A stretch of DNA of 64,000 nt from Puniceicoccaceae bacterium (GTDB lineage: Bacteria > Verrucomicrobiota > Verrucomicrobiia > Opitutales > JAFGAQ01). Location of the stretch: assembly GCA_028285755.1 (NCBI GenBank), contig JANQOQ010000008.1, positions 629,399-693,398 on the forward strand, in the 5' to 3' direction. This document shows positions 1,484-37,405 of this stretch, one piece after another. Within the stretch, counting starts at the first letter, position 1, and each line of letters begins with the position of its first letter. A program made the position numbers and the translations under genes. The notes beneath the pieces are model-generated. The model was not told the DNA's origin, did no database searches, and was given only the letters and a program-made list of their open reading frames with translations.

Positions 1484-3511
1484 TTATGCCGGCACAGGCG
1501 AGGGTTCGGGCCCGAGATCTTCCTTATCTTTGGATTCTTCAGCTTTGGGCTCTTTTTCTTCTTCTTCAGCCGGCTCATCGTCTTGCTTGCCTGATTTAAA
1601 GACGGGAGAGCGGATTTCGCCGAATTCCAAAATTTCCTCTACGTGCACTCCATCGAGGGTTTCGTGCTCAAGTAAGGACTCCGCCAGGGTGACCAGCGCA
1701 TCCTTATTTTCCATGATCAGGGATTTGGCACGATCAAACTGGTCCTGGTTGATGTCGTGGATGGCCTGATCGATCTTTTTTGCCGTTTCCTCAGAGAAAT
1801 TCTGATTGCGCGTGATTTCCTTGCCCAGGAAGATGTGGTCCTGATTATCGCCATAGGCAACCATTCCTAGATCACTCATGCCCCAGTCGCATACCATGTG
1901 TCGCGCCATTTCAGTGGCCTGCTTGATATCCATCTGAGCGCCGGTTGAGTATTCGCCAGTGAGGAGTTCTTCGCCGATACGACCTCCCATGGTCACGCAG
2001 ATACGATCCAGCACTTCACTTCTGTTTTGGCCGAGAATATCCTTGGTCGGCGTAAACATAGCCATACCGAGTGCTCTACCCCGTGGTAATATGGTTACTT
2101 TGTGAAGCTTCAGTTTCTTCGACTTAAGCAACACTTGTAAGATGGCGTGACCTGCTTCGTGGTAGGCCGTTGCCTTCTTGTCCTCATCGTCCATGAGCTT
2201 GCGGCGCTCACGCCCGAAGCGGATTTTATCGTGCGCTTCCTCAAGCTCTGCCATGGAGACTTCCTTGCGGTTGTAACGGGCAGCAAGCAGTGCGCTTTCA
2301 TTCAAAAGGTTCGCGAGGTCGGCCCCGGCAAAACCGGTGGTCGCACGTGCGATGCGGCGCAAGTCCACTTCTTTGGAAAGTTTAATCTTTTTTGCGTGAA
2401 CCTTGAGAATGGCCTCGCGACCGTCCAGATCGGGCACGTCGATGGTGATCTGCCGGTCGAATCGACCGGGTCGCAACAGTGCATTATCCAGAACGTCCGG
2501 GCGATTGGTTGCTGCAATGATGATTACCCCCTCGTGGCCGTCAAAGCCGTCCATCTCCACGAGCAGGGAGTTCAAGGTCTGCTCGCGCTCGTCATTGCCT
2601 CCGCCAAGGCCTGCGCCCCGTTGACGGCCGACAGCATCGATTTCATCAATAAACATCAGGCAGGGTGCATTTTTGCGGCCCTGTTCAAACATGTCGCGCA
2701 CACGGGCTGCCCCTACACCCACGAACATCTCAACAAAGTCCGAACCGGAGATCGTGAAAAACGGGACATCGGCTTCACCGGCAACTGCGCGTGCAAGCAT
2801 TGTCTTGCCCGTGCCCGGAGGACCCACCATGAGCAGCCCCTTGGGGATTTTACCTCCGATTTTCTGAAATTTCTTCGGGTCTTTAAGGAAATCCACCACT
2901 TCGCTGACCTCTTCCTTCGCCTCATCGCAGCCGGCGACATCCTTAAAGGTGATGCGCTCCTTATCCCGGGTAAGCATCTTTGCCTTACTCTTGCCGAAGG
3001 AAAGCGCGCCTCTGCCTGCATTGCGCAGTTGGCGGATGAATATGAAATAGATCAAGCCAATAATCAGCAGTATGGGCAGGATGCTGCCGACAAGATCGGT
3101 AATCCAGCTTGCTGCTCGTTTTTCCTGGAAAATCTCACGGATCACCAAAAAGTCATCCTCAGTGATGCGGCCTTCTGCCGTAAATCGACTGGGTGCAGAT
3201 GCTTGCGCCGAGCCTTCTGCCTGAATGCCGCCTGCAGTGCGCAAGGTACCTTCAAGCTTATGCCAGGATTCCCCGCCCCGTGGATCGCTGACGATGGTGC
3301 CTGTTTCGATTTGATCTTTGCGAGCGGCCTCAACCACTTCGCGTATGGTCATCGTTCTGACGTTGGACTGAGTGTTGCTAAGACCGATGAGCGAAAAAAT
3401 AGCAAATGCCACGATAATCCAGATGAGCAGCAGCTTGGGCTCAAAGAATCGATCATTGGGCATCTTCCCCTTATTTTTACCGGAATTATTCTCTGGTGGA
3501 CGGTTATTCAT
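1484..3511 (-). CDS. ftsH: ATP-dependent zinc metalloprotease FtsH
   Basis: FtsH is a membrane-anchored AAA+ protease that degrades misfolded and regulatory membrane and cytosolic proteins. Two membrane segments (about residues 26-44 and 141-160) flank a periplasmic domain. The AAA module has Walker A GPPGTGKT at 230-237, Walker B LMFIDE at 285-290, and the second region of homology near [17 protein letters not shown]. The zinc site HEAGH is at 451-455. The 675 residues are slightly longer than usual because of an acidic, Glu/Lys-rich tail of about 40 residues. It lies 9 bp downstream of tilS, a neighbourhood common in bacteria, and ends at a strong terminator. Confidence 0.98.
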
Positions 3512-3520
3512 TCAATATTT

Positions 3521-4993
3521 TTAACATTTTAACGAATGCGAGAATGGGAGGTAAGTCAACTGTAGAAGCCATTTGGTAGCAGTTGTTACCTTGTGGCGTT
3601 CGCTGGGTAATAAGCCCGGAACCCACAGGATTTCACCCGCATCATTAAATATAACGGGTAACTGCTTCCTTTTATTGGATGGTATTTTTTGATCGGTAAA
3701 ACAGTCCTGTAGTTTTTTACTCCCTCGCATGCCGAGTGGCTGATATTGATCACCCGGTTGCCAGCGTCGAATTGTTAGATATGATAATTTTGTTTCTTCT
3801 ATACTTATATAGACGCTTTCGGTATGCGAAAATTCGCCTGAAAGCACTTTTTTTATTAAATTTGTGTTCGCTGGGATCAAGCGATACTCCAAACAACAAC
3901 CATCTGGGAAGTATAGGGAAGATGTCTCGGGTGCTTTGAACTCAAAGGTAATGGGCGTCTCACATTGTGAGATGGAATGCAGAGATAATAATCCTTTTTC
4001 GGATAATTTGATCTGATACTGTGTGCTGATTTGCCGTTCCCATGCGGACTGAGTTCGGAGTTTTTCCAAAATGACAGATATCACATTATCCGGTAGCTCA
4101 ATTTCCTGGAGGGATGCCCAGGTATGGATGATTCGCCGGAGAATCGCATCTGGCGAGTTTGTATAGCTATTAAGATGTAGGTTACCTTTTTCAATGGGGT
4201 AATTATCGAGGGCTTGTTTTTTGAAGTGCTCCAATGCCTCATGGGCTTCCTGTAATAGTGCGTGAGTGTTTGAGAGGTTGGCTTGCAGATCCTGGGGATT
4301 CAGCGATTCCCAAAGTGGCAATAGCTGATTGCGAATGGCATTGCGGGTGTATTCGCTGGATTGATTGGTGCTATCTTCCCTCCATGGGATATGCATCGCT
4401 TCGAGGGCTTGGATAATGAGGCTTTTCCTCACCTTTATGAGTGGGCGCACATGCTTAATCGTTTCGCCCATAATTTGAACTTCCCTGGGGGCGCTGAGGC
4501 CTTCAATACCACTGCCGCGACCGAGTCGAAGGATGAGGGTTTCGATCGCATCATCCTGATGATGTCCCGTAATTAACAGATGAGTTCCGATCTGTTCCAT
4601 GATTTTCCTGAAAAAGCCATGACGGTGTTCCCGCAATTGGGCTTCATTTGCTTCTTTGGGGAGCGGTGTGTCCGGACTGCCCAGATGAAAAGTAAGCCGG
4701 AGCCCTTTGCAGATATGTTCCACGTATTCGGCATCGAGCGCTGAATCCGACCGGATGCCGTGATTAAAATGGACGACATGCAAGAGATCGGATTTGTTGT
4801 AATATAGCCGAAAAAGCCAGCAGAGCAGAAATACGGAATCAGCACCGCCACTGCATGCAATTGCGATCGGTTTATCATCGTCGAGGGAGCTTTTGATCTC
4901 TGCCTGAACTGTGTGAGCATGGTCCAACGCAGTCTGCAACTTATCGGGAAGTGGGTAAGCTAGTAGCAGATTCTGATTTAATGGCTCATTCAT
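3521..4993 (-). CDS. tilS: tRNA(Ile)-lysidine synthase TilS
   Basis: TilS converts the wobble cytidine of the tRNA-Ile CAU anticodon to lysidine, using ATP and lysine. The N-type ATP-pyrophosphatase P-loop SGGADS is at residues 48-53. It is followed by LHVVHFNHGIRSDS and the TGHHQDDAIETLILRLGRGSG motif of the catalytic domain. The C-terminal part contains IRRWQPGDQYQPLGMRGSKKLQD, typical of the TilS C-terminal domain. The 490-residue length is normal. It is transcribed with ftsH. Confidence 0.97.
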   Translation of the reverse strand: MNEPLNQNLLLAYPLPDKLQTALDHAHTVQAEIKSSLDDDKPIAIACSGGADSVFLLCWLFRLYYNKSDLLHVVHFNHGIRSDSALDAEYVEHICKGLRLTFHLGSPDTPLPKEANEAQLREHRHGFFRKIMEQIGTHLLITGHHQDDAIETLILRLGRGSGIEGLSAPREVQIMGETIKHVRPLIKVRKSLIIQALEAMHIPWREDSTNQSSEYTRNAIRNQLLPLWESLNPQDLQANLSNTHALLQEAHEALEHFKKQALDNYPIEKGNLHLNSYTNSPDAILRRIIHTWASLQEIELPDNVISVILEKLRTQSAWERQISTQYQIKLSEKGLLSLHSISQCETPITFEFKAPETSSLYFPDGCCLEYRLIPANTNLIKKVLSGEFSHTESVYISIEETKLSYLTIRRWQPGDQYQPLGMRGSKKLQDCFTDQKIPSNKRKQLPVIFNDAGEILWVPGLLPSERHKVTTATKWLLQLTYLPFSHSLKC

Positions 4994-5083
4994 TTGATGG
5001 ATTGGATCGTTTATCCTAATTATATTGTTAATACTCTAAAAATTTGTAATGTTACCTGCGCATCCTTTTTTCCTAATAATTGA

Positions 5084-6922
5084 ATGAATTCTCAGAAACT
5101 TATCGATATTGGGGAGATTATCGAGAAAAACCCAAGCTTAAAGACTTTGCGCCCGTTTGTGCCGGCCATTAGTCGATTTTTGCGGGTTGATCAAGTAAAT
5201 GAGAATTACGAGTATGTATCGCGCTACCTGGATGCTTCGGAAGGTAAGTTGAACTTCTATGAAGCTGCACTCGAAGCGAATGGTGTGAGCTACGAAGTGT
5301 CCGAAGAGGATCTTGCGAAAATACCCCTGGAGGGCCCGCTTTTTGTCGTCGCAAACCATCCATACGGGGCCATTGATGGTATAATTTTGGGTGCTCTGTT
5401 AACCCGGGTGCGGCCCGATGTGAAGTTGCTGGTGAACGAGCTGCTGGGGAAGATGGATCGCTTCCGGCCCTATATATTTGGCGTAAATGTTTTTGGGGGG
5501 AACGACTCCAAAAAGCAGAACATCCGGACGATGAAGCAGGTGTTTAGCTGGCTGGAATCCGGAGGGTGTATCGGGACGTTTCCTGCAGGTGAGGTCTCCC
5601 ACTTCAGCTTTGAGCACTTACTGGTCAGGGATGGCGATTGGAACCCGAATTTACATCGACTTATCCACCGAACACGCGCAACAGTGTTGCCGGTTTATTT
5701 CTCGGGGAGAAATTCCAACCTTTTTCAAATGTTGGGCATATTACATGCCCGGTTCCGTACGTTAATGATCGGACGTGAATATACCCGATGCCTTCAGAAG
5801 AATTATCCGGTCAAGATTGGGAAACCCATTCTCTACAATCAACTCAAGAAGTATGAGAGCCCGAAAGAGCTAATGCAGTTCATGAGATTGAGTACCTACA
5901 TACTATCCAATCGGGGGGATGCAAAACCGGATGCGATGCGGCGGTTTCCTTTGAAAATGACCCCTAAGCAGAAAGCGTGGGATTCGATTATAGAGCCGAT
6001 CGATACCCAACTTTTACTCCAGGATGTTGAAGTGCTTAAAAATACAGACAATGAACTCGTCAATCATGGTACGTATACTGTGTTCTACGCGCAGCCGTTA
6101 CAGATTCCCCATGTGTTAAAGGAGATCGGGAGACTTCGGGAGGAGACATTTCGACTGGTTGGCGAGGGAACCGGGAAGTCTGTGGATTTGGATGCTTTTG
6201 ATGCTCATTACACCCATCTCTTTATGTGGAATAATGAGAGTTGCGAAATCATAGGCGCTTATCGCATTGGACCGACAGACATTATCCTGAAATCTCACGG
6301 AAAAGAGGGACTGTATGTCACCTCGCTGTTTAAATTTAAAGATGATTTGATACAGGAACTGAATCCGGCTCTGGAGCTGGGGCGTTCGTTTATCCGGGTG
6401 GAGTATCAACGCAAGCATGCGTCCTTGTCGTTAATTTGGCGGGGAATCGGTGAATATCTTGTGCGTAATCCCCAATACAACTATTTATTTGGACCGGTGA
6501 GCATAACTCAGGAATACAGCTCTATATCCAAGGACCTCATGGTGCAATTCCTGAGTAAGAAGAAAACCCATCCGGAGCTTTCTAAGTTTGTTAAGGCCAA
6601 AAATCCACCCCGTTCGCGCAGATTTGCGAAGCTTCTGAAGTATCTTGCTCCTGATAGCCTGGAGGATATCAGTGATATTTCAGCGATTATATCTGAGATC
6701 GAATCCGACAAAAAAGGAGTGCCCATCCTATTGAAGCACTACCTCAAACTCAATGGGGTGATGCTCAGTTTTAATCGGGACCCCCAGTTTAATAATGTGA
6801 TCGACGGTTTAATTCTGGTGGACCTCAATCAGACAGATGAGGCGATTTTAAAACGCTACATGGGAGAGGCGGGCTACCAGACCTACGCTTCTGCACAGCA
6901 ATCCAAAGATATTGTGGTTTAG
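5084..6922 (+). CDS. Bifunctional PlsC-like / OlsB-like acyltransferase (OlsF-type, aminolipid synthesis)
   Basis: Two acyltransferase halves are fused. Residues 80-290 form a lysophospholipid acyltransferase domain with NHPYGAID at 91-98. The His-Asp spacing is one residue longer than classical HX4D, as is typical of the hemolysin-like PlsC subfamily. From about residue 330 on, an N-acyltransferase of the OlsB/acetyltransferase class is recognisable (REETFRLVGEG, then EIIGAYRIG and LELGRSFIRVEYQ). Bifunctional OlsF enzymes with this order make ornithine lipids, so an aminolipid product is plausible, though the head-group amino acid cannot be read from the sequence. The stop codon shares TTAG with the convergent GT4 gene. 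Confidence 0.85.
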   Translation: MNSQKLIDIGEIIEKNPSLKTLRPFVPAISRFLRVDQVNENYEYVSRYLDASEGKLNFYEAALEANGVSYEVSEEDLAKIPLEGPLFVVANHPYGAIDGIILGALLTRVRPDVKLLVNELLGKMDRFRPYIFGVNVFGGNDSKKQNIRTMKQVFSWLESGGCIGTFPAGEVSHFSFEHLLVRDGDWNPNLHRLIHRTRATVLPVYFSGRNSNLFQMLGILHARFRTLMIGREYTRCLQKNYPVKIGKPILYNQLKKYESPKELMQFMRLSTYILSNRGDAKPDAMRRFPLKMTPKQKAWDSIIEPIDTQLLLQDVEVLKNTDNELVNHGTYTVFYAQPLQIPHVLKEIGRLREETFRLVGEGTGKSVDLDAFDAHYTHLFMWNNESCEIIGAYRIGPTDIILKSHGKEGLYVTSLFKFKDDLIQELNPALELGRSFIRVEYQRKHASLSLIWRGIGEYLVRNPQYNYLFGPVSITQEYSSISKDLMVQFLSKKKTHPELSKFVKAKNPPRSRRFAKLLKYLAPDSLEDISDISAIISEIESDKKGVPILLKHYLKLNGVMLSFNRDPQFNNVIDGLILVDLNQTDEAILKRYMGEAGYQTYASAQQSKDIVV

Positions 6923-30665: not shown

Positions 30666-31249
30666 ATGAAACGATGTGCTACCCCTATTCCTGTTATAGT
30701 CGCATTCCTATGGGGGTGTTTTTGCATGGCCGATGATCGGCCGAATGTTTTGTTTATATCCGTAGATGATTTGAATGACTGGGTGGGAGTCTATGGTGGG
30801 CATCCTCAGGCTATGACCCCCCATATCGATCGTCTGGCGGGAAGGTCCATAGTATTTCGCAATGCGAGCTGCCCGGGCCCGGTTTGCGGACCATCTCGGT
30901 CTGCACTGTTATCCGGATTCATGCCATCCACAACCGGGCTATATAGTAATCGCCACAATATGCTGGACTCTGAAATCGTTCAAGCGCACACGACGTAGTG
31001 TCTGAGGAATGGCACTATATCACTTACAGTGATGGATCTGTTGAGCTATATGATATCAAAAACGACCCTATGCAATGGAATAATCTGCTACATGAAAATC
31101 CGGCAAATCAACAAGCGGCAGTAGATTACCTTAGATCATATCTCCCGGTAGAAAAGGCTGAGCCTATTCCCGATGGTAGAAAGAAGACATCCAGAAAAGG
31201 CTTGGATAAGACTATAAAACCCAAGCGAAATCTGGAAAGGTTAAAATGA
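30666..31249 (+). pseudogene. Sulfatase pseudogene: internal deletion plus frameshift
   Basis: Residues 1-108 of frame 1 are a normal S1 sulfatase N terminus: a signal peptide, FISVDDLNDWVGVYGGHP (metal site) and C74-G-P-S-R (formylglycine motif). The frame ends at TAG 30996-30998. The other frame then gives EEWHYITYSDGSVELYDIKNDPMQWNNL, which aligns with the C-terminal WRYISYADGSEELYDHRVDPNEWTNL of the sulfatase at 25905. About 300 central residues, with the remaining metal ligands, are missing and the frame is shifted at the junction. It cannot encode an active enzyme. A Lys/Arg-rich tail follows. Confidence 0.9.
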
Positions 31250-31492: not shown

Positions 31493-32047
31493 ATGAACGC
31501 TAAGAAAACGAGCCAATCTGAATGGTTTAGAACGGAGATCCTCCCTCACGAGGCAGATCTGCGGACATGGCTTACAGCGAGATTTTCATCTTATTCGGAA
31601 ATTGATGATGTTATTCAGGAATCCTATTTCAGGCTATTGAAGGCCAATGATTCAGGGCCGATTGTGAATCCAAGAGCTTACCTGTTTGTAACTGCCAAGA
31701 ACATCATCTTGGGCCGTCTGCGACATCTTACTTATGAAAGGCCCAAGGGTTTTAAGGAGATGGATCCGTTAGAAATCGTTGATGAGAGCAAAAGCCCCTT
31801 GGATGAAGCGACCCAAAATGATGAAATCCGCATATTGATTGAGGCCATACAATCGCTTCCTAAGCGATGTTGCCAGGTTATGACTTTGAGAAAGATTTAT
31901 GGTTACTCTCAAAAGGAGGTAGCAGCACAACTCAAAATGAAGGTAAATACCGTACAAGTACAATCAGCTATAGGTCTTAGGAAATGCGAAGAGTATTTTA
32001 AGAAGATTGGCTACAGAAAAGGGGAGAGTGATGAGCAAAAATCTTAA
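31493..32047 (+). CDS. ECF RNA polymerase sigma factor (FecI-like)
   Basis: The 184-residue protein has a sigma-70 region 2 (RTWLTARFSSYSEIDDVIQESYFRLLKAND, then NPRAYLFVTAKNIILGRLRH) and region 4 (SLPKRCCQVMTLRKIYGYSQKEVAAQLKMKVNTVQVQSAIGLRKCEEYF). It lacks region 3, as ECF factors do. It is followed at once by a FecR-type anti-sigma gene, an STN lipoprotein and a TonB receptor, so it most likely responds to a glycan fragment sensed by the receptor and switches on this locus. Its stop overlaps the fecR start. Confidence 0.95.
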   Translation: MNAKKTSQSEWFRTEILPHEADLRTWLTARFSSYSEIDDVIQESYFRLLKANDSGPIVNPRAYLFVTAKNIILGRLRHLTYERPKGFKEMDPLEIVDESKSPLDEATQNDEIRILIEAIQSLPKRCCQVMTLRKIYGYSQKEVAAQLKMKVNTVQVQSAIGLRKCEEYFKKIGYRKGESDEQKS

Positions 32048-33089
32048 GGAACGTAATCTAAGCTCAGAAACAGATCGTGGGGCAATCGAATGGGTGTCCA
32101 AAGTCGACAGAGGTTTGAGTCCTGCTGAACAACGCGCATTCGATCGATGGCGGCAACAATCGCAGGAACATAAAGATGCCTTTGATTTTCATCTATGGAA
32201 TTGGGAACAGTTCGACCGGCTTGCTGGCCTTCAGAGTGCCGAAGCAACTCCGGTAGATGCAAATCTGCTGCTAAAACGTAAGAGCCAGAACCATTTTTTA
32301 CAGGAACATTGGCAGATCATAGGCATGGCGGCGGCTATGTTGATAGCACTGACCACGTTGGTGTTTAATTACGTCCAAAGTCGCTCAGATAACTTGGCAA
32401 TCGTAAATGACAAAGGGGTAAATGTTGAGAGAATCGAAGTCCAGGAACTACAGGATGGGAGTTCTATCCAACTCAACCATGATACGGAACTGATCGTGAA
32501 CTACGGAGAAGAATCCAGGATAGTTGATTTACTAAGAGGAGAGGCACACTTCATCGTTGCAAAAGATGAAAACCGCCCGTTCATCGTACAAGTATCCGGT
32601 ATTCAACTCATTGCAGTGGGCACTGCATTTAATGTGAGGATGTCCGATGACGTTGTGGATGTGATTGTTACGGAAGGGCGGGTGGCACTGAATACACTTG
32701 AAGGCAACCAAGCCGTTGTCACGCCCCTACAGCCCTTAATAGATGAACAACATCGCGCAATCGTCTCTTTCAGGGATACAGATGCTGAGTATTCGATTCA
32801 ACCCGTTGAGGCATCAGTAATGGAAGAAGAGCTATTGTGGCAGCCTAAGCTTATCAGTTTCGACAGTGCGACCCTGAGCGAGATCGTAGATGAGTTTAAT
32901 CGGCGGAACAGCGTTAACATGCTCATTGTGGATTCTTCTCTGAAGGAGGCCCGGCTTTCCAGTATGTTCTGGTCAGATAATCTCAATGGCTTTGTGAGGT
33001 TACTGGAGTCCAACTTTGGAGTCAGCGCTGAATGGGGTGAAGATGGCACTATTTATCTATTCAATAAAACCCAAAACAGCGAATTTTAA
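32031..33089 (+). CDS. FecR-type anti-sigma factor
   Basis: The ATG at 32031 is chosen because a strong Shine-Dalgarno (GGGGAGAG) lies just before it, although translation overlaps the sigma gene by 17 bp. An N-terminal cytoplasmic sigma-binding domain (DUF4880-like: AIEWVSKVDRGLSPAEQRAFDRW) precedes one membrane helix (about residues 95-113). The periplasmic FecR domain follows (RGEAHFIVAKDENRPFIVQV), and then a C-terminal DUF4974-like domain (ISFDSATLSEIVDEFNRRNSVNMLIVDSSLKE), itself STN-like. It should hold or activate the sigma factor depending on contact with the receptor signalling domain. Confidence 0.94.
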   Translation: MSKNLKERNLSSETDRGAIEWVSKVDRGLSPAEQRAFDRWRQQSQEHKDAFDFHLWNWEQFDRLAGLQSAEATPVDANLLLKRKSQNHFLQEHWQIIGMAAAMLIALTTLVFNYVQSRSDNLAIVNDKGVNVERIEVQELQDGSSIQLNHDTELIVNYGEESRIVDLLRGEAHFIVAKDENRPFIVQVSGIQLIAVGTAFNVRMSDDVVDVIVTEGRVALNTLEGNQAVVTPLQPLIDEQHRAIVSFRDTDAEYSIQPVEASVMEEELLWQPKLISFDSATLSEIVDEFNRRNSVNMLIVDSSLKEARLSSMFWSDNLNGFVRLLESNFGVSAEWGEDGTIYLFNKTQNSEF

Positions 33090-33114
33090 CGATCAATATT
33101 CCCTTAATCTGTCA

Positions 33115-33453
33115 ATGAATCGAAAAAGCGCTCCATTCAGTATTTGCATGTTCTCATTTCTTTGCGTGCTTCAAGTGATTTTGATTGGATGTAATCGTAA
33201 TGATGCAATCCTGTTTGATATTCAGGAAGGTCAGGCTCTGTATACTTTAAAGGTTTTCGCTGAGCAAGCCAATGTCGAAATCCTGATGGACGAGAATGAT
33301 ATCAAGGGCGTGAATACACCCTCGATTAGTGGTCGAATGTCTGCGAAAGCCGCACTCAAAAAGTTGCTTGCGGATACCACACTTCAATTCGAGCAAGATC
33401 CTCAAACCAACGCGATCGCTGTTTTTCGTAAAAACAGATTAACCTCATATTAA
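33115..33453 (+). CDS. Free-standing STN-domain lipoprotein
   Basis: The ATG at 33115 gives 112 residues: a lipoprotein signal with lipobox LIGC (Cys at 26), then a single secretin/TonB N-terminal (STN) domain beginning ILFDIQEGQALYTLKVFAEQ and ending NAIAVFR. The residue after the Cys is Asn, so outer-membrane location is expected if Lol rules hold. The domain aligns over its whole length with the STN domain of the adjacent receptor (DFDIPKGDASETVRIFGAQS ... DAFAIIR). It probably takes part in the FecR/receptor contact. Its presence as a separate gene is unusual. Confidence 0.82.
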   Translation: MNRKSAPFSICMFSFLCVLQVILIGCNRNDAILFDIQEGQALYTLKVFAEQANVEILMDENDIKGVNTPSISGRMSAKAALKKLLADTTLQFEQDPQTNAIAVFRKNRLTSY

Positions 33454-33520
33454 ACAACCCTCTATTCAATTAATGCTATTCTACTCCCCATAATACTAAA
33501 CAAACCCATCCATTACATTG

Positions 33521-36500
33521 ATGAGGATTCATCTGCAGTTTTACCCCCTATTTTATTTATGTTCACTCATTACCCTGAATTTCGCGTTAGCCAATAATGA
33601 AAATACCCTCGATTTTGATATCCCCAAGGGGGATGCAAGTGAGACCGTAAGAATTTTTGGTGCGCAATCCGATAAAAGTATAATCTACAACCGATATGAC
33701 ATTGAAGGAATCACCACCCATGCAGTAACCGGAGATTTTACACCAAGTGAGGCATTGAGAATGATGTTTCTCAATACCCCGCTTGGCTTTGATCATGATC
33801 TTGAGTCGGACGCTTTTGCGATAATCCGTCTTGAAGAATCCTCTCCAAAACTTTCACCGATTCAGACGAGCGGCAACTCGGATGAATCAAAAAACGTTAA
33901 CCCAAATCACAACAGTTCAATGAAAAACAATACTGAAGAACGCGGGCTAGTCAAGCTACTAGCCGGCCTCTTGACGGCGATAACGACCGTTGCGCCAGCT
34001 ATTTCGGTAGCTCAGGAAGACGATGAGGAGAATGTGCTATTGCTCTCCCCGTTTGTCATAGAATCAACCGAGGATGTCGGCTACGCCGCAACCTCCACGC
34101 TCGCGGGGACACGCATCCGCAGTGATCTTAAGGATCTTGGTGCAGCGATCAGTGTCTACACCTCCCAGTTTTTAGAAGATACGGGTGCAACGGATGCGGG
34201 ATCACTGCTTTCCTACACCTCCAATGCTGAAGTGGGCGGTAACTTAGGAAACTTCTCGGGTGCGGGTGACCACTCAAACGGTCGTTATCTGCAGCCGGGT
34301 GCGCGCACAAATCCCCAGTTCAACCAGAGGATTCGTGGTCTTGGACAGGCTGATTTGACTCGGGATTATTTCCTGACGGCTATCCCGTTGGACAGCTTCA
34401 ATACCGAGCGTGTAACCATCAGCCGCGGTCCCAACTCACTGCTATTTGGTATTGGTAATCCGGGTGGGGTCTTGAATAACTCCACTAAGCAAGCGGTTCA
34501 TGGAAACAACTTTGGAGAGGTATCCATTCGATTAGACAACTATGGAACCCATAGGGTCACCCTGGACTACAATCGTACCCTGATTGAGGATCGGCTTGCC
34601 GTTCGCTTTGCGGTTTTGGATCAAAATATCAAATATAAACAGGACCCAGCCTTTGAAGACACCAATCGTTTTTATGGAACCGTGAATGCTGTCCTCTTTG
34701 AGAATGCAGACAGTGATTTCCTGGATCCGACCCGACTGCGTATTAACGCTGAAGTGGGTGATGTCACATCTCTTCCGGTTGAAATCATCCCGCCGTCAGT
34801 TGCATTTCACGGATGGTTTGAACCGATTCCCGCTAACATCCAGCAGTTCTCAGCAATAAGGCCTGCGTCCAGAGTGGTCTCACCGAGTGAAGGAGGAACC
34901 TGGCAGTTTCAAGAGACCTACAATCCGTTTGAGTTTAATTCGGAGTCACAAATCAATACGAATACGCATCCCAGTCATTTCAGGTTGTTAAACCGCATAT
35001 ACAATGACCCGAATGCGACCGTTGCGGATGTAGGCTCTGGCGATGGTATACAGGGTTATCAGGGTATCATGCTTTGGAGAAGCAACCTGGATACCTACGG
35101 CAGTGCGGGACTGGCAGGAACACCGGGTGTCCTGGCTGCAGGAATAACCGATCCCAATACACCTTTGCGAGGCAGAACCGTTGAGTATCATACTAACAGT
35201 CCTTATTCAGAGGGTTACGCAATTGGATTTGCAGTACCTACACTGCAAAATACCGACATTTTTGATTATCGTAATAAGATCTATTCAGGAGACACGGATC
35301 GCGTTGAACGTAAGTTCGATGCAGTCAATTTCGCACTGGAACAAAACTTTTTCAACAATCGCATGGGGGTCGAGTTTGCTTATGACAAGCAGTACTATGA
35401 AACTTTCCAGGACTTTCATTTCAGTGGGGGTAATGGAACAAGCACGACAGGTCCTTATGATATCTACGTCTCTATCGCTGAATATCTCCCCAATGGGCAA
35501 CCCAATCCAAACTTGGGGCGTGCCTATACACGGGTATCCACTCCCCGAACCGTTTATAACGAACAGGAGTATGAGACTTTCCGAGTTACGGCATTTGGCG
35601 AGTTGGATTTCACTGGTAACGATAACTTCCTGAAATTCCTGGGACGCCATCGTTTCACAGCGCTCTACAATGACTATTCCCGCGATAGTTTCGTTCGTCA
35701 TAACAAGATGGTTTTGGACAGCCAGCAATTTGATATAGGATCTGCTGTTCAGGGCAATGAGATCAATGCAGTCAGACGTGGGGTTTACACCCGGGTGTAC
35801 ACGAGTGATTCGCTTTTGGGGCTCAGTTCAATCGACGAAGTTCGACTCAGCCAAATCAATATCCCCAGACCCCGTGCGGGAGACACCTACAACGTGGTCT
35901 ATGCGGACCATAGTTCAGCGGATGCTGGCCGAAGAATCGAAACCGGTGAAGTTTATATAAGAGATATCATCGACTTCGAAAGTATGGATCGCAGAGAGAT
36001 CAAAGCGAAGGCAATCGCCTGGCAGAGTTATCTCTTGGATGAGCACATTGTTGGCTTGGTGGGCATTCGTGAGGATGATACGACCAGTATCCAAAGGGCG
36101 AATGAGGATGAAGTCGGCTTCGAACCTAGAAATGATTCGGGACTATGGAATCAGGATTTCACCCGTTTATCAAATACGCCAAGCCTGGAGGAATCCGGAC
36201 AGACAGTTACCTGGAGTATAGTAGCCCGTTATCCGGAGCGATGGCTCGGTGAGCTGCCCGCAGGCATGGATTTTCAGATCCAATATGCAGAGTCTGAAAA
36301 TTTCAACCCCATCGGGCTGCGTAGTAACGCACTGGGCCAGGCAGTTGAACAACCTACCGGCACCACAAAGGAATACGGATTTTTACTTAGTCTTGCCGAG
36401 CAGAAATACTCGCTACGTGTGAACTGGTTTGAGACTTCTTTAAATAACATCGGAGTAGGTGGCGGAACAGATGTGGCTTCTGCTGGATATGGCATTATCA

Positions 36501-37405
36501 ACCGTTACCGTGATGCTGAACTGCAGGGAATACAGTTTACTGAAATCCTGGATGCGCTTGGATTGGATAGCTCCTTCCCGATCCAGAATTATCAAACGGT
36601 ATACGACTTATCCCTGGCTAATGTTCCCAGTGTTTTGAGGGATATTACCAATCCACGTCAGGATGATACGGATGGTGATGGCATATGGGATGAGATCGAT
36701 TGGGATCGTATCCAGAATATAAGCACTTTCGCGAATACCGTGGCTGAGGGAATGGAGATCGAGCTCGTTGCAAATCCCATTCCCGGTTGGCGTATTCTCG
36801 CGAACATCAGCCGTCAGGAGACTATTCAAAGTGATACGGCAAGGATTATGTCTGGTCTGATTGAAGGATATAATGCCAACTTGCAGGCATCTAGAATCGG
36901 TGAATTGCTCCAGGATCCTGATCTGACCGTTCAAATCAGAAATATAAATGAACTCTGGTTTGCGGGTCCTCTGGCAGATATCCGTGCGGCAACCGCGTTT
37001 GATGGCACTGTATCTAACGAGCAGCGCGAATGGCGATATAATTTCGTTAGCACGTATGAATTCCAGGAGGGAACCTTTCGCGGATTTTCTGTAGGCGGTG
37101 CCCTGCGTGGCGAAACCGAAGCCGCTACCGGGTATGCCTATATCCTCGAGGAAACTACCGGTGTGCCGATTCCGGACGTTAATCGCCCTTTCTACGATGA
37201 TGGGCTCTTCAGTGGGGATTTCTGGATGTCTTATAAGCGAAAGCTTTTCGATGATAAAATCGACTGGAAAATCCAGCTGAGAATCCGAAATTTGATTGGC
37301 GAAGATGATGATATCCCCGTTCGGACCAATCCCGATGGTCAGGTGGCTGTGATACGTATTCCTAACCCAAGAGTAGTAACCTTAACCAATACGTTTAGCT
37401 TCTAG
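33521..37405 (+). CDS. TonB-dependent receptor with N-terminal STN signalling domain
   Basis: The ATG at 33521 gives 1294 residues (a TTG one codon upstream is also open). There is a signal peptide (1-25), an STN domain (about 29-104), a linker, and then an odd internal hydrophobic stretch at 143-164 that looks like a second signal peptide preceded by Met134. The plug starts after LLLSPFVIESTEDVGYAATSTLAGTRIRSDLKDL, which is a TonB-box-like region, and the beta-barrel ends in the C-terminal Phe of NTFSF. No SusD gene is nearby. It should import glycan fragments and pass a signal via STN to FecR. Translocated substrate unknown. Confidence 0.93.
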   Translation: MRIHLQFYPLFYLCSLITLNFALANNENTLDFDIPKGDASETVRIFGAQSDKSIIYNRYDIEGITTHAVTGDFTPSEALRMMFLNTPLGFDHDLESDAFAIIRLEESSPKLSPIQTSGNSDESKNVNPNHNSSMKNNTEERGLVKLLAGLLTAITTVAPAISVAQEDDEENVLLLSPFVIESTEDVGYAATSTLAGTRIRSDLKDLGAAISVYTSQFLEDTGATDAGSLLSYTSNAEVGGNLGNFSGAGDHSNGRYLQPGARTNPQFNQRIRGLGQADLTRDYFLTAIPLDSFNTERVTISRGPNSLLFGIGNPGGVLNNSTKQAVHGNNFGEVSIRLDNYGTHRVTLDYNRTLIEDRLAVRFAVLDQNIKYKQDPAFEDTNRFYGTVNAVLFENADSDFLDPTRLRINAEVGDVTSLPVEIIPPSVAFHGWFEPIPANIQQFSAIRPASRVVSPSEGGTWQFQETYNPFEFNSESQINTNTHPSHFRLLNRIYNDPNATVADVGSGDGIQGYQGIMLWRSNLDTYGSAGLAGTPGVLAAGITDPNTPLRGRTVEYHTNSPYSEGYAIGFAVPTLQNTDIFDYRNKIYSGDTDRVERKFDAVNFALEQNFFNNRMGVEFAYDKQYYETFQDFHFSGGNGTSTTGPYDIYVSIAEYLPNGQPNPNLGRAYTRVSTPRTVYNEQEYETFRVTAFGELDFTGNDNFLKFLGRHRFTALYNDYSRDSFVRHNKMVLDSQQFDIGSAVQGNEINAVRRGVYTRVYTSDSLLGLSSIDEVRLSQINIPRPRAGDTYNVVYADHSSADAGRRIETGEVYIRDIIDFESMDRREIKAKAIAWQSYLLDEHIVGLVGIREDDTTSIQRANEDEVGFEPRNDSGLWNQDFTRLSNTPSLEESGQTVTWSIVARYPERWLGELPAGMDFQIQYAESENFNPIGLRSNALGQAVEQPTGTTKEYGFLLSLAEQKYSLRVNWFETSLNNIGVGGGTDVASAGYGIINRYRDAELQGIQFTEILDALGLDSSFPIQNYQTVYDLSLANVPSVLRDITNPRQDDTDGDGIWDEIDWDRIQNISTFANTVAEGMEIELVANPIPGWRILANISRQETIQSDTARIMSGLIEGYNANLQASRIGELLQDPDLTVQIRNINELWFAGPLADIRAATAFDGTVSNEQREWRYNFVSTYEFQEGTFRGFSVGGALRGETEAATGYAYILEETTGVPIPDVNRPFYDDGLFSGDFWMSYKRKLFDDKIDWKIQLRIRNLIGEDDDIPVRTNPDGQVAVIRIPNPRVVTLTNTFSF

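Follow-up and report, generated by a model that had tools for sequence, protein, structure and literature searches.

A Fec-type signalling cassette of Opitutales with a separate STN lipoprotein and a predicted second start inside its TonB-dependent receptor gene

In Fec-type cell-surface signalling, binding of the ligand leads to proteolysis of the FecR-type anti-sigma factor and release of the sigma factor. The STN domain of the receptor is usually the sole STN partner of FecR, although this is perhaps not a defining property. How the outer-membrane receptor reports to the inner-membrane anti-sigma factor is an open question, and recent work favours free signalling domains. The FecI-FecR-FecA system of E. 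coli and the Pup, Fox, Has and Fpv systems are composed of an ECF sigma factor, a FecR with a C-terminal STN subdomain and a TonB-dependent receptor with an N-terminal STN domain. Apart from PupR, proteins with an STN domain have it N-terminal to their other domains, as stated by Jensen et al. 2020 (PMC7186176). In the complex of PupR CCSSD with PupB NTSD (PDB 6OVK/6OVM), the PupR residues T288, L291 and E292 belong to the contact (PMC7186176), and the L74A substitution in PupB abolishes binding. PupR:PupB has one STN partner only and no free STN protein. In P. aeruginosa, the FoxA signalling domain is lost in vivo, and a free signalling domain, when overproduced, protects FoxR and so blocks signalling (PMC11637429).

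In this study we analysed a window of 64,000 nucleotides, the whole stretch of DNA considered here, from the genome of a Puniceicoccaceae bacterium (4.25 Mb, 15 contigs). The sequence-only reading of this DNA had described four genes in series with three STN-like modules; this is confirmed, and the coordinates hold (Table 1). The locus belongs to an inherited subtype of Fec-type cell-surface-signalling cassettes and is a variant that carries an additional part. The sigma factor gene adjoins the FecR gene, FecR has a C-terminal STN-like domain, and the receptor is an STN-plug TonB receptor, in the same gene order as in the Fec, Pup, Fox, Has and Fpv systems. Unlike those systems, the cassette has an extra gene for an STN lipoprotein, Trp and Ser at contact positions where other residues are usual, a receptor gene containing a further, predicted start with its own signal peptide, and glycan genes nearby instead of iron genes. 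In contrast to PupR:PupB, which has the same folds and onto whose contact site the variable residues map, it encodes a second, free STN protein. As the earlier reading had supposed, a described system with such an extra part was not found in open-access papers; the open-access literature contained no description of an STN lipoprotein, of an internal start in TonB receptors or of FecR systems in Verrucomicrobiota.

Table 1. Positions of the cassette genes and of the sites discussed in the text, numbered along the window
Feature	Position	Strand	Basis or remark
ECF sigma factor, FecI-like, 184 aa	31493..32047	+	Pfam Sigma70_r2 and Sigma70_r4_2, NCBIfam sigma70-ECF, all above cut-off
FecR-type anti-sigma factor, 352 aa	32031..33089	+	Pfam; PupR 6ovk profile match; AF2/Foldseek
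Trp314 codon in FecR motif FWSDN	32970..32972	+	Diagnostic of FecRs with a downstream STN gene
STN lipoprotein, stand-alone, 112 aa	33115..33453 (ATG 33115)	+	Pfam, custom profile, AlphaFold2/PDB matches
Lipobox LIGC	33181..33192	+	LIGC followed by N; Cys 9 residues before the STN fold
Glu55 codon of the lipoprotein	33277..33279	+	Aligns with PupB L74 (FecR contact)
TonB-dependent receptor gene, long form, 1294 aa	33521..37405 (ATG 33521)	+	Pfam and custom STN profile
Receptor STN domain	33596..33832	+	Custom STN profile
Receptor STN Ser53 codon	33677	+	Glu at the same position in lipoproteins
Leader of the internal start, A/C-rich, G-poor	33885..33919	+	AACCC at 33899-33903, 21 nt before the ATG
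Predicted internal start codon ATG, Met134 of the long form	33920..33922	+	
Second signal peptide MKNNTEERGLVKLLAGLLTAITTVAPAISVA	33920..34012	+	Predicted cleavage before Q
Predicted short form, STN-less receptor, 1161 aa	33920..37405	+	From start codon, mRNA context and signal peptide

FecR is composed of DUF4880, a transmembrane helix, the FecR domain and the C-terminal STN-like domain (about residues 253-345). Pfam detected DUF4880, FecR (63 bits, above cut-off) and FecR_C (18.7 bits, below the cut-off of 24.4). The C-terminus aligned end to end with STN domains, and the profile alignment with PupR (6ovk) spanned both subdomains including the PupR STN subdomain; the AF2 model (pLDDT 84) matched 4m0h and 6ovk in Foldseek. 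The long-form receptor runs from a first signal peptide through STN, a linker, a second signal peptide and the plug to a C-terminus of barrel length. Its plug scored above the Pfam cut-off (36.9 bits) and its STN below (19.7 bits), the latter reaching 5e-26 with the custom STN profile. The lipoprotein scored 27.3 bits with PF07660, just below the cut-off of 28.4, and with the STN profile built for this analysis both STNs gave E values of about 1e-26. Its AlphaFold2 model had a pLDDT of about 97 across the domain, with the signalling domains of FpvA, PupB, FoxA, FecA and PupA as best PDB matches (TM 0.85 on target and rmsd 1.2 against PupB 6ovm), so that it is an STN domain in both PF07660 sequence and fold. 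The window gene encodes a signal peptide with a lipobox and its Cys, and every downstream STN gene of the set encodes a lipobox-like Cys whose spacing is nearly constant (9-11 residues). Lipid anchoring is predicted from these features, as is the final membrane, inner or outer. A single close pair was measurable and gave a dN of 0.07 and a dS of 1.04 (dN/dS about 0.07). On this comparative evidence the gene is real, conserved and under purifying selection.

The genes downstream of the cassette encode a GH95 enzyme, sulfatases, an apiosidase-like enzyme and a right-handed beta-helix protein, and are consistent with degradation of a sulfated, fucose-containing glycan. Because of the neighbouring GH95 and sulfatase genes, the signal of the cassette is likely a fucose-containing sulfated glycan. 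A sulfatase gene remnant lies just upstream of the cassette (window positions 30666-31249); it consists of an N-terminal piece of 110 aa with a CxPSR-type site and a C-terminal piece of 83 aa in another frame, and the middle is missing.

The same genome has 36 sigma-FecR-receptor cassettes, and a separate STN gene is found in 8 of them, which far exceeds chance; it lies between FecR and receptor in seven and before sigma in one. In this genome (G000), 53 TonB-receptor plug matches stand alongside the 36 cassettes in 4.25 Mb. A search of related genomes, proposed by the earlier reading, recovered the order sigma-FecR-STN-receptor in about 28 cassettes of about 11 Opitutales genomes. The small STN gene, whose absence or breakage in all relatives would have spoken against that reading, is thus kept across about 28 loci. 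The order was found in G003, G004, G031, G064, G235, G251, G351, G361 and G363 and in Puniceicoccaceae bacterium K14, and the named matches include Pelagicoccus and Opitutales genomes. Among 289 genomes drawn from the phylum Verrucomicrobiota, matches at E <= 1e-12 were confined to Opitutales, and a single-protein search of genome contigs with the STN gave no match. In a tree of sigma and FecR cores, the cassettes labelled as having a downstream STN formed one clade (25 rows, SH-aLRT 99), one row of which, L130, keeps an old label and is a Trp-FecR cassette without an STN gene. The supposed stand-alone STN of L130 (G088) was rejected as a receptor start at a contig edge, and the counts were corrected. 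The stand-alone STNs themselves are compatible with one clade (constrained tree not rejected, p 0.925), so a single origin fits. L015, L128 and L129 have a less common order, STN-sigma-FecR-receptor; they are separate in the sigma/FecR tree and lack the Trp signature.

The FecRs with a downstream STN gene all have the motif [FIV]WSDN, whereas others are mostly RSDN-like. Trp was present in 26/26 FecRs of such cassettes and is limited to FecRs of that one clade; in the window's own genome, counted in a sample independent of the STN gene, it occurred in 7/7 FecRs with a downstream STN versus 0/29 others. This Trp aligns with P290 of PupR (RVSGTFPLEN), which is flanked by T288 and L291/E292 of the interface. 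At the position of PupB L74, a mapping that is possibly one residue off (PupA has Gln there and Leu next in a gap-free alignment, and its residue at this position is given as Leu in PMC11429574), the lipoproteins have Glu, Asp or Asn in 25/26, the receptors of the same cassettes have Ser or Gly in 25/26, and Ser occurs in 1/49 of other receptors. In L127 (G003:C230) the residues are swapped relative to all other cassettes, with Gly in the lipoprotein and Asp in the receptor.

We dropped the idea that a Trp-FecR always comes with an STN gene, since an STN-independent search found at least four Trp-FecR cassettes without an adjoining one (G010, G031, G088 and G339). The lipoprotein is therefore not essential to the Trp-FecR type. 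The receptors of these cassettes have Gly (G010), Ser (G031 and G339) or Asp (G088) at the contact position. A small residue is mostly kept there; the FecR Trp and the receptor Ser probably face each other, and the lipoprotein appears to keep the ancestral acidic residue. The Trp and Ser changes arose once, in one clade, and few independent events underlie their association with the STN gene; being phylogenetically linked, they are to be read as a conserved specialisation and not as many independent gains. Because the class-specific residues lie at a structurally known contact, it is likely that the STN lipoprotein acts in the FecR-STN system.

On the role of the lipoprotein, the sequence-only reading had suggested that it could be an added relay, decoy or adaptor. 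A conserved part with a likely role in the FecR-STN system is borne out, and a rigid relay becomes less likely with the 9-residue tether and the pattern of Trp in FecR, Ser in the receptor STN and Glu in the lipoprotein, which points to the receptor STN as the partner of FecR and does not obviously point to the lipoprotein. A relay or adaptor would bridge the receptor STN and the FecR C-terminus and pass the ligand signal across. All three modules are STN folds capable of pairing, as in PupR:PupB (PMC7186176), the STN gene lies between the FecR and receptor genes, and the residue classes of the two STNs of one cassette are complementary, both being reversed in L127. However, the distance of only about 9 residues from lipid anchor to fold gives little reach, a long linker is already present in the receptors, and Trp-FecR cassettes without the lipoprotein occur, so that we regard a relay as unlikely.

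The acidic residue of the lipoprotein resembles those of receptor STNs paired with Arg-type FecRs and not that of its own receptor, and 36 parallel cassettes are present in one cell. As an insulator or decoy, the lipoprotein might use this ancestral residue to occupy the Arg-type FecRs of other cassettes or foreign receptor STNs. Its gene has remained in the operon of a single FecR clade; this speaks for a partner in cis and makes an insulator quite unlikely.

The receptor gene has a further feature that the sequence-only reading did not contain. In 62 receptors of several families, including that of the window, the linker from STN to plug contains a start codon with a complete signal peptide after it. 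The codon is ATG in 60, GTG in one and TTG in one; the two non-ATG starts are those of L115 (GTG, receptor 2765-6133) and L116 (TTG, receptor 1568-5563). The second signal peptide has a median length of 30 and an n-region charge of +2, and in 60/62 it ends in the cleavage motif (small)-x-A/G/S before Q. Signal peptides of this kind, with the same junction (AQDDxED...LLSPF), are also found at the N-terminus of the STN-less receptors of the same genome. The mRNA around the internal start is hardly folded: the mean was -1.7 kcal/mol per 50 nt in the 62 receptors, against -1.9 for 16 true STN-less receptor starts, from which this context is indistinguishable, and -10.0 for 726 other in-frame ATGs, and the internal start was the least folded in-frame ATG in 56/62 receptors (5.7 expected). 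In the 12 positions before it, G-ending codons make up 11% of the K/Q/E codons versus 49-52% elsewhere (p about 1e-31 against receptor bodies). This G-depletion is synonymous, and amino-acid constraint cannot explain it. A conserved in-frame start codon and an initiation-type mRNA context, as of a nested gene, are thus both present.

Shine-Dalgarno-like sites precede only 6/62 internal starts. A leader motif, AACCC, was found at 27/35 internal starts of the own genome and 9/16 true STN-less receptor starts, versus 3/36 sigma, 0/36 fecR and 2/28 long-form starts and few stand-alone STN starts; it is possibly a translational control element of the receptor class. Leaders that are A-rich and G-poor with an AACCC(T/A)AA-like motif are seen in the STN-less receptor genes L042 and L149-L165 as well as at internal starts. 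About 15 receptors of Opitutales lack the second signal peptide segment and have no such mRNA context, so the receptor can fold without it. The split of receptor and STN in G361 (L114) was considered as proof of an autonomous second signal peptide and rejected as a frameshift at homopolymer runs; no second signal peptide is present there. These features strongly support use of the internal start, and an STN-less receptor is probably made from the same gene. The reading frame is open from the STN to the internal start in 62/62, which suggests that the long form is also retained.

The second hydrophobic segment could instead be a processing site or membrane anchor, where signal peptidase would cut the long receptor and free the STN. 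The AxA-like motif before Q in 60/62 and the in vivo cleavage of the FoxA signalling domain (PMC11637429) accord with this. Processing leaves unexplained, however, why a start codon is present in 62/62, GTG and TTG serving in the two non-ATG cases, and equally the synonymous G-depletion, the loss of mRNA structure and the AACCC leader. We regard processing in place of an internal start as very unlikely; both could occur.

That the lipoprotein is a neutral, functionless duplicate of the receptor STN, as the Trp-FecR cassettes without it might hint, is already disfavoured and highly improbable, since about 11 genomes retain the gene, with its lipobox, at about 28 loci, and since it has class-specific contact residues and shows the low dN/dS given above.

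The free-domain results on FoxR and FoxA lead us to propose the following for the Opitutales cassettes. The chances seem about even that they are an inherited Fec-type subtype, seen only in Opitutales, in which the STN modules are uncoupled from the barrel by means of the lipoprotein and the internal start. The separate STN lipoprotein, encoded between FecR and receptor, would be the first uncoupling of signalling from the barrel. The internal start would be the second, so that one gene would give two receptors, one that has the STN and signals and one that lacks it and only transports. The lipoprotein would be a constant, always-present, tethered free STN that helps to keep FecR protected and sets the FecR threshold. 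By analogy with the free FoxA domain, a periplasmic STN acting on the anti-sigma factor, we hold the protecting role with moderate confidence. FoxA cleavage gives an STN-less receptor, as predicted for the short form in the window (PMC11637429), but the free FoxA domain comes from proteolysis or overproduction, whereas the window has a dedicated lipoprotein gene and a predicted internal start. Because the changes at the contact site go with the extra module, we infer that the lipoprotein may be a third partner of the FecR-STN complex, subfunctionalised and not redundant. Against a partner role, it has Glu where the receptor matched to Trp-FecR has Ser, so that it may not use that face to bind its own FecR.

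In conclusion, through the separate STN lipoprotein and the predicted second receptor start, signalling seems to be uncoupled from transport in a manner for which the open-access literature gave no description. We consider it fairly probable that Opitutales carry dozens of nested receptor genes per genome, that one clade of the cassettes adds a dedicated free STN lipoprotein whose FecR contact is re-specified, and that the ratio of signalling to non-signalling modules is set genetically. If this is true, most of these receptor genes have a second product that is missing from current annotation. With a natural tethered free STN, and receptors apparently made with and without STN from one gene, the cassettes would allow a genetic approach to the questions of whether the active species is the free domain and whether sensing can be adjusted independently of uptake. 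They also bear on how marine Verrucomicrobiota avoid cross-talk among dozens of parallel sensors.
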